A stretch of DNA of 61,195 bases from Desulfuromonas sp. GTDB lineage: Bacteria > Desulfobacterota > Desulfuromonadia > Desulfuromonadales > UBA2294. The notes under the pieces were generated by a model, which saw nothing but the letters and a program-made list of their open reading frames with translations, did no database searches and had not been told where the DNA came from. Below, piece by piece: positions 7,761 through 9,377 of this stretch; the first letter of the stretch is position 1; each line of letters opens with the position of its first letter. The translations under genes and the position numbers were made by a program. The DNA is taken from NCBI GenBank assembly GCA_002869615.1, contig PKUH01000024.1, positions 1 to 61,195 of the forward strand. Direction: 5' to 3'.

Positions 7761-8210
7761 TTATTGAAATGTTTGGTCGAACTTGTCTTGATCAAGATAT
7801 TTTTCGAATGCTCCAAGAGCTTGAGAAACGCTCGGCTCGGTCATCAACTCCTGCATGGCAACTTCTCCCACGATTCCGAACGCATATTGAATCGATGAGG
7901 TGCCACCTTCTTTAAAGGCTGCATTAGCCGTCTGCGGACAATCTTCGGTCATAAGACGTGTTATTAACCCGCCGACATATTTGTTCATACCATCGAAATC
8001 TTTCTGCGTCGCTTTTGTGTACGGTTTAATGGTGCTATGCGTAGACATCCCAAAGTAAATCCATTTAGCCAGGTTTTTTCTTTCTTTGCCATTAATCGAG
8101 TCAGTAAGGCAAACTGCTAAATCCTGAGCGGCTTGACCCGCATGCGTTATCACGGGGGTCAGTGTCAGCATGATGATGAGCAATGATGTCACAAATAGAT
8201 GGTTTTTCAT
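7761..8210 (-). CDS. hypothetical exported protein (candidate cassette gene)
   Basis: A 149-residue protein with a signal peptide (about 1-24, ending THA). The mature part is soluble and has two Cys (AVCLTD and EDCPQT), possibly a disulfide. I do not recognise the family; the composition suggests a small helical periplasmic protein. AAGGAG upstream supports ATG 8210. The gene begins 15 bases after a GTTGATA core on the minus strand, the recombination end of a candidate attC site. It may therefore be an integron cassette, although no attC was seen after its stop. Confidence 0.65.
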   Translation of the reverse strand: MKNHLFVTSLLIIMLTLTPVITHAGQAAQDLAVCLTDSINGKERKNLAKWIYFGMSTHSTIKPYTKATQKDFDGMNKYVGGLITRLMTEDCPQTANAAFKEGGTSSIQYAFGIVGEVAMQELMTEPSVSQALGAFEKYLDQDKFDQTFQ

Positions 8211-8224
8211 TGCAACTCCTTTTT

Positions 8225-8344
8225 TATCAACGGTTCATGATAATCGGCGGCGACGAAATGTTCGAACACCACCGCAATTTTAGACATTTTGCTTTTCAGA
8301 TTCACACAGACGTATTTTCCGTCTGGTTGATTAGTTTGTTAGAA
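8225..8344 (-). mobile_element. candidate attC recombination site (weak)
   Basis: On the minus strand the gap begins TTCTAAC (8338-8344), a relaxed form of the outer attC core, and ends ACC-GTTGATA (8225-8231). That is the same end sequence as the stronger site at 8703-8812. An internal CAGACG/CGTCTG hairpin and a GCGGTGG-TGTTCG segment recall attC loops. Inner-arm pairing is poor, so this remains tentative. Confidence 0.4.
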
Positions 8345-8357
8345 ATTCTCTTTAAAG

Positions 8358-8699
8358 CTACAGAACCAAAAACAATATAAATACCAATATTGAAATAAAT
8401 AAAGAAAAGATGAAAGCGTACCGTTTGGTTATGAATTTGGAAATTATTGCTCCATTCATTATGGTTGCAATGATTAATGAAGTTAAAAATAATTCGTTAC
8501 CAACTATCGGGCCTAACATAAAAGACCACGGAAAACTGGTGATTGTCAGGGATATTACCAACGTGTAATTTAAGGCACTATATGGATCACCATTTTTCAG
8601 TGTAATTAAATACGCTATGAATAATGATATCAAGATAGGCGATGATGCTAATATGCCGTCTCTTATAAAATTGACAAGCTGTGAGATATGTTTACTCAT
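8358..8699 (-). CDS. hypothetical membrane protein, probable cassette gene
   Basis: A 113-residue, AT-rich gene for a protein with about four hydrophobic segments (roughly 13-31, 43-62, 65-83 and 93-113). No family is recognised. The gene lies between the two attC-like sites and starts just after the GTTGATAT core of the stronger one, exactly the layout of an integron gene cassette. No ribosome-binding site is obvious in the few bases before ATG 8699. Confidence 0.6.
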   Translation of the reverse strand: MSKHISQLVNFIRDGILASSPILISLFIAYLITLKNGDPYSALNYTLVISLTITSFPWSFMLGPIVGNELFLTSLIIATIMNGAIISKFITKRYAFIFSLFISILVFILFLVL

Positions 8700-8702
8700 T
8701 CC

Positions 8703-8812
8703 ATATCAACGGACCAAGCTAAGCGGGCTGGGCCTGGTCACTTTCAAATTAGTAGAAACCTTTACGCGAACCACCGCCGTATTTCCCAGTCCGCTTGAGC
8801 AATTGGTTAGCC
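8703..8812 (-). mobile_element. integron attC site
   Basis: Read on the minus strand, the left arm is GGCTAAC (R'') followed by CAATTGCTCAAGCGGACTGGG. The right arm is CCCAGCCCGCTTAGCTTGG followed by the GTTGATAT core (R'). GCT-C-AAGCGG pairs with GCT-AAGCGG, leaving one extrahelical C in the left arm, and CTGGG pairs with CCCAG. Extrahelical bases like this are the hallmark of single-stranded attC folding. The loop (TACGGCGGTGGTTCGCG) recalls Vibrio-type repeats. The 110-bp length is within the normal range. Confidence 0.8.
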
Positions 8813-8821
8813 ATTCGACCT

Positions 8822-9103
8822 CTACGATTTAAGCATAGAGATGAACATGCCCACCGTTATAAATAAGCCAATATAGAAATAGTAAATTTTAAGTAACAAA
8901 GGTGGCTTGACTAATATTTTAGTTGGTAGGAAAGCCACAATTAAAGTTGGGAGAAAAGCAATGAAGAATGCTATTGCTTCAATTTTTTGCGTGGGAGTGT
9001 TGTTTTCAGCTAACACAATTATGGCAAAACTGACAATCCCACCGATAATAAAAATTGGGACGAATATAAACAGTCTGACAAGTATGACAATAGAATTTTC
9101 CAT
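8822..9103 (-). CDS. hypothetical membrane protein, probable cassette gene
   Basis: A 93-residue, AT-rich gene encoding three hydrophobic segments (about 6-29, 40-62 and 70-91). The family is not recognised. The stop codon is nine bases from the outer core of the attC site at 8703-8812, as expected for a cassette gene followed by its own attC. Upstream of ATG 9103 lies GTTAGCC (9110-9116, minus strand), a possible recombination core marking the cassette's left end. Confidence 0.6.
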   Translation of the reverse strand: MENSIVILVRLFIFVPIFIIGGIVSFAIIVLAENNTPTQKIEAIAFFIAFLPTLIVAFLPTKILVKPPLLLKIYYFYIGLFITVGMFISMLKS

Positions 9104-9109
9104 ATATGT

Positions 9110-9116
9110 GGCTAAC
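9110..9116 (-). other. possible integron core site (attI or attC R')
   Basis: The minus strand reads GTTAGCC seven bases before the first small gene of the cluster. It is one base away from the GTTRRRY consensus. No pairing left arm was found further upstream, so this could be a relic attI. No integrase gene is present nearby. Confidence 0.35.
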
Positions 9117-9324
9117 TACTGATTAGACGGAATTATTTCCGCATAATATTCACTGTGAATTACTAAAGAACTGGCTACAGCTTCATGATTCCAGCAACTT
9201 AACATTTTGATCTGTAATATTGAAAATGAAAATGCGACCAATTCCCATCAATTTAATAAACAAAAAAGTTACCCATAATTCCGTCAAATGACGAAAAAAA
9301 TTATCAGGTATACTCAAAAATAAT

Positions 9325-9345
9325 TCGGCTCATTATAGCAACCAT
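9325..9345 (-). promoter_or_regulatory. candidate extended -10 promoter for the small-gene cluster
   Basis: The minus strand contains TGCTATAAT (TATAAT at 9332-9337), a good extended -10 element, with no clear -35 box. It lies about 220 bases upstream of the first cassette-like gene. The stretch 9117-9370 is otherwise AT-rich and gene-free. Confidence 0.4.
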
Positions 9346-9377
9346 TTCTTACATTTTTCTTACATCTGGAGGGAAAA

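Follow-up and report, generated by a model that had tools for sequence, protein, structure and literature searches.

The window, that is, the whole 61,195-nucleotide stretch of Desulfuromonas sp. DNA that was analyzed, contains an island between an ACP phosphodiesterase gene (9968–9378) and an OmpA-like gene (6407–5739). Five genes on the minus strand fill this interval: ORF93, ORF113, sec149, TM157, and a DUF1353-like gene. The features at the ACP phosphodiesterase side of the island are as follows:

9110–9377, minus strand: leader, AT-rich and non-coding, from the ACP phosphodiesterase gene to cassette Y
8710–9116, minus strand: cassette Y, composed of the GTTAGCC start core (9116–9110), the 93-aa ORF (9103–8822), and attC type A
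8822–9103, minus strand: ORF93, predicted small membrane protein with about 3 TM segments
8704–8812 (gap 8703–8812), minus strand: attC type A, with R'', L'' with an extrahelical C, a variable loop, L', and R'
8231–8709, minus strand: cassette X, composed of the 113-aa ORF and attC type B
8358–8699, minus strand: ORF113, predicted small membrane protein with about 3 TM segments
8225–8344, minus strand: attC type B, with R' GTTGATA at 8231–8225
7761–8210, minus strand: sec149, with a predicted signal peptide and a start about 15 bases past the R' core

As an earlier note on this DNA had described, the cassette ORFs are short, lie on one strand, and are AT-rich, with a GC content of 0.32–0.34 and a GC3 of 0.35–0.37 vs 0.56–0.62 and 0.70–0.77 in host genes. 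A GC3 this low fits a foreign origin. The GC3 of the DUF1353-like gene is host-like (0.75) and that of the other 4 island genes is low (0.35–0.46, with 0.46 in sec149); thus, the island is composite. Searches of Pfam, NCBIfam, PADLOC, and PHROGs matched neither ORF93 nor ORF113 to a family, and neither has a relative in the 394 other genomes of the phylum, nor does ORF113 have one in plasmids. Integron cassette genes are commonly without relatives. A search of the window against Rfam returned tRNAs only.

The gap between ORF93 and ORF113 had been claimed to have the full layout of an attC site, and all elements of this layout were found on the minus strand: (i) the outer elements R'' (GGCTAAC, 8812–8806) and R' (GTTGATA, 8710–8704); and (ii) the inner arms L'' (GCTCAAGCGG) and L' (CCGCTTAGC), which pair with one extrahelical C. 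A whole-genome search with this gap revealed 5 further copies, 4 on contig C100 and 1 on contig C92, with 75%–88% identity and E-values down to 8e-32, the best being an 88% identical attC in the C100 cassette array. The covariance-model search recommended in the earlier note was performed with 2 models. The first (R1), built from the 5 attC sites elsewhere in the genome (C100 and C92) with the 8704–8812 site left out, matched 8704–8818 on the minus strand with 115.3 bits (E = 3e-27), which was its sole match in the window. The second (R2), built from 79 sites of the order, among which there is no type B site, scored the type A site at 94.7 bits. In the alignment of these 79 order-wide sites, which is itself fitted to the structure, 20 of the 24 model pairs covary and the stem scores far exceed those of slid controls. 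Folding, which had also been recommended, gave an energy that is moderately unusual taken alone (z about −2.3 to −2.5). Since 5 attC homologs exist in the genome and a model without the site matches it with 115 bits, the layout is beyond chance; on sequence comparison, the 8703–8812 gap is a genuine attC site.

The second gap (8225–8344) ends in the GTTGATA core at 8231–8225 that had been reported as shared with the first. Its identity as a full attC was absent from the earlier note and was established by homology to C100 and by R2. The gap is 99% identical to C100:5505–5617, which is placed between 2 C100 cassettes, with 1 of 113 bases differing, and R2 finds it at 8225–8350 with 36.5 bits (E = 1.8e-6). 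By these matches, the gap is a second full attC of another type, and the 2 types, A and B, are both common to the resident array. With 2 sites, spaced about 360 bases apart, 2 cassettes are present, each encoding one small predicted membrane protein. Both R' cores (8704–8710 and 8225–8231) have the form GTTGATA, which is not seen in the C100 array.

GTTAGCC, noted earlier as preceding the first gene, is present at 9116–9110, 6 bases ahead of the first ATG, and occurs just twice in the 61-kb window, bracketing cassette Y as an inverted pair. Over 8 bases, the start core GTTAGCCA complements TGGCTAAC, the R'' of the same cassette; the C100 cassettes mostly start with a core complementing their own R'' over 8–10 bases (full range 1 to 10). 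By contrast, the start core of cassette X (GTTGATA) matches its own R'' (TTCTAAC) in only the 3 leading bases. The cassette X boundary is therefore not textbook, and the mismatch may have arisen from mutation or from exchange of a cassette end.

A covariance search with filters off gave no match to a third attC 3' of sec149, TM157, or the DUF1353-like gene. A 13.4-bit match at 8849–8930 falls within ORF93 and was regarded as a chance match. The interval from TM157 to the DUF1353-like gene contains a 12-base inverted repeat (7039–7050/7143–7154, 11 of 12 bases, with arms 92 bases apart), which was rejected as an attC because it is without GTT/AAC cores. The gene sec149, which has 3 matches in the 394 other genomes of the phylum and is absent from the same locus in a same-genus relative (G001), is possibly a third cassette whose attC escapes detection, or else a gene adjoining the insertion site. 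In the leader, a 15-base inverted repeat (9122–9136/9275–9289) lies near the core, and such a repeat occurred in 1 of 60 shuffles. It is possibly a decayed attC; the covariance model was negative for an attC in the leader despite the inverted repeat.

No intI or recognizable attI was found in the window, and intI, attI, and cassettes, which are contiguous in a complete integron, are not found together there. All 6 integrase-model matches in the genome are located on contigs C61, C80, and C108, and none is on the contig of the window. An integron integrase of 436 aa is encoded without stops on contig C61 (4.2 kb); it was found by the integrase-model search of the genome with 418 bits and matches TIGR02249 with 439 bits (cut-off 265). 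The tyrosine-recombinase R, HxxR, H, and Y are present in the directly read translation, and the frame is apparently intact. The term "integrase-less" in the earlier note therefore holds for the window but not for the genome. The C61 integrase gene (L007 2798–4105) has about 120 extra aa N-terminal to the part covered by the integron-integrase model, and long integrase frames like this one were found in several relatives.

The whole-genome search for intI and attC, which had likewise been advised, revealed, in addition to the C61 integrase, an array of about 10 attC-like sites and cassettes on C100 (9 kb) and a further attC on C92. The attC sites of the C100 array, which is larger than that of the window, are the nearest kin of the 2 in the island. 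The C100 cassettes, whose translations were judged by eye, resemble toxin–antitoxin pairs, a NUDIX hydrolase, a GFA-type enzyme, and a methyltransferase. The C92 attC is of type A (1479–1586) and is accompanied by cassette-like genes beside host genes, on the ubiE side. This C92 region (L021 500–2850) appears as a second ectopic cassette-like group, with an attC-like end near 2755–2830. The assembly is a 121-contig draft, in which the island is placed on a contig separate from intI and C100. An interspersed repeat at 9–441 of the window recurs in C61 and at one end of C100 with 82%–90% identity; because both contigs carry it, their belonging to the same genome is supported. Contigs appear to break within this repeat.

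The order of 10 flanking genes is retained in G001, where the ACP phosphodiesterase gene is followed directly by the OmpA gene, so that about 2.9 kb present here are missing there. The presence/absence comparison called for in the earlier note thus finds ORF93 and ORF113 absent at the G001 locus, and conservation of the same gene order as ordinary chromosomal genes, which would have spoken against a cassette array, was not seen. As sec149, TM157, and the DUF1353-like gene are also missing there, the exact pre-insertion site is not lined up in any relative. Among the 38 genomes of the order, 15 have an integron integrase over the cut-off, and 26 have R1 attC matches when E-values as high as 0.1 are admitted, so that a part of these matches will be due to chance. 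Type A attC sites are also present in named Desulfuromonas, Desulfuromonadales, and Deferrisomatales MAGs.

With 2 clustered attC sites and no integron integrase on its contig, the locus has the features by which IntegronFinder defines a CALIN (at least 2 nearby attC sites, short one-strand genes, and no intI close by). It is a minimal two-site case with an integrase elsewhere in the genome, and nothing essential sets it apart. The claim of an integron cassette array is borne out by the covariance models, the homology, the cassette boundaries, and the absence from the same-genus relative, with only 2 attC sites demonstrable in the island. Integron integrases join attI to the folded bottom strands of attC sites. 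We are confident, short of certainty, that the island holds a small CALIN of 2 cassettes (Y and X) on the chromosome of a Desulfuromonadales bacterium with an integron of its own. Insertion in trans by the C61 integrase at an attG-like site is the simplest and most likely account. The C61-encoded integrase, the putative agent, would have excised or received circular cassettes and, acting on the folded bottom strand of each attC, would have inserted them by recombination at a non-attI GTT site, presumably attG-like, in the interval from the ACP phosphodiesterase gene to the OmpA-like gene. Because each attC remains recognizable, the cassettes could conceivably still be mobilized in trans.

The island could instead be the remnant of a second integron that decayed and lost its own intI, an origin that has been proposed for CALINs (PMC9024848) and that we consider improbable here. 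A 13-base string of the leader recurs upstream of the C61 intI gene, at a score reached by 1 of 300 shuffles; this string is A-rich, and the idea that the leader had been copied from upstream of intI was rejected because the match consists of these 13 bases only. No integrase fragment accompanies the island, the 6 model matches being confined to C61, C80, and C108, and the near-identity of its attC sites to those of the resident array points to recent exchange. It is far less probable still that the island is an unassembled continuation of a single C100/C61 integron locus: the C100 array does extend to the limit of its contig, and the break in C61 falls about 110 bases ahead of intI, but the cassettes of the window are internal to a single contig and are flanked on either side by host genes in synteny with G001. 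Ordinary chromosomal genes separated by chance hairpins would agree with the modest fold z; this explanation is refuted by the E-value obtained with an independent model, by the 88%–99% identity to attC sites of the array, and by the absence of the genes at the G001 locus.

CALINs are known already, ectopic ones next to genes for outer-membrane proteins among them, as are Geobacter integron integrases, and the locus described here is one more instance. In Xanthomonas, ectopic CALINs are cassette pairs at chromosomal loci off the intI locus, some of them beside an outer-membrane protein gene, and a functional IntI can mobilize CALINs in trans (PMC12444791); the placement of the cassette pair is the same here and the lineage differs. 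According to the account of Loot et al. 2024 given in PMC12901181 and PMC12444791, integron integrases also recombine attC bottom strands with non-classical genomic attG sites. As in attG insertion, the cassettes here would be integrated at a genomic site that is neither attI nor attC, a presumed target that was not observed empty. A report of intI genes in Geobacter dates from 2008 (PMC2426708). The sedentary chromosomal integrons of Desulfuromonadales and Geobacter consist of intI and an array, whereas the window contains cassettes only. The locus documents cassettes at a chromosomal place apart from the contigs with the integrase and the main array, in a little-studied environmental order in which integrons are frequent and several families share the same attC type. 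The attG/CALIN picture gains one example, with no change of concept.

The region upstream of the OmpA-like gene might be a recurrent landing place of cassettes in the genus, with the whole 2.9-kb island, including sec149 and TM157, resulting from repeated insertion and attC decay, a speculation that we regard as rather unlikely. The G001 locus is not necessarily a pristine empty site. Upstream of the OmpA ortholog of G001 lies the 17-base sequence GTTTCTACNNNNTTGAA, an exact copy of the loop of a type A attC (GTTTCTACACACTTGAA) and the only copy in that genome (L043 9892–9908, corresponding to G001:C16:15891–15907); this fragment may be a scrap of an attC.
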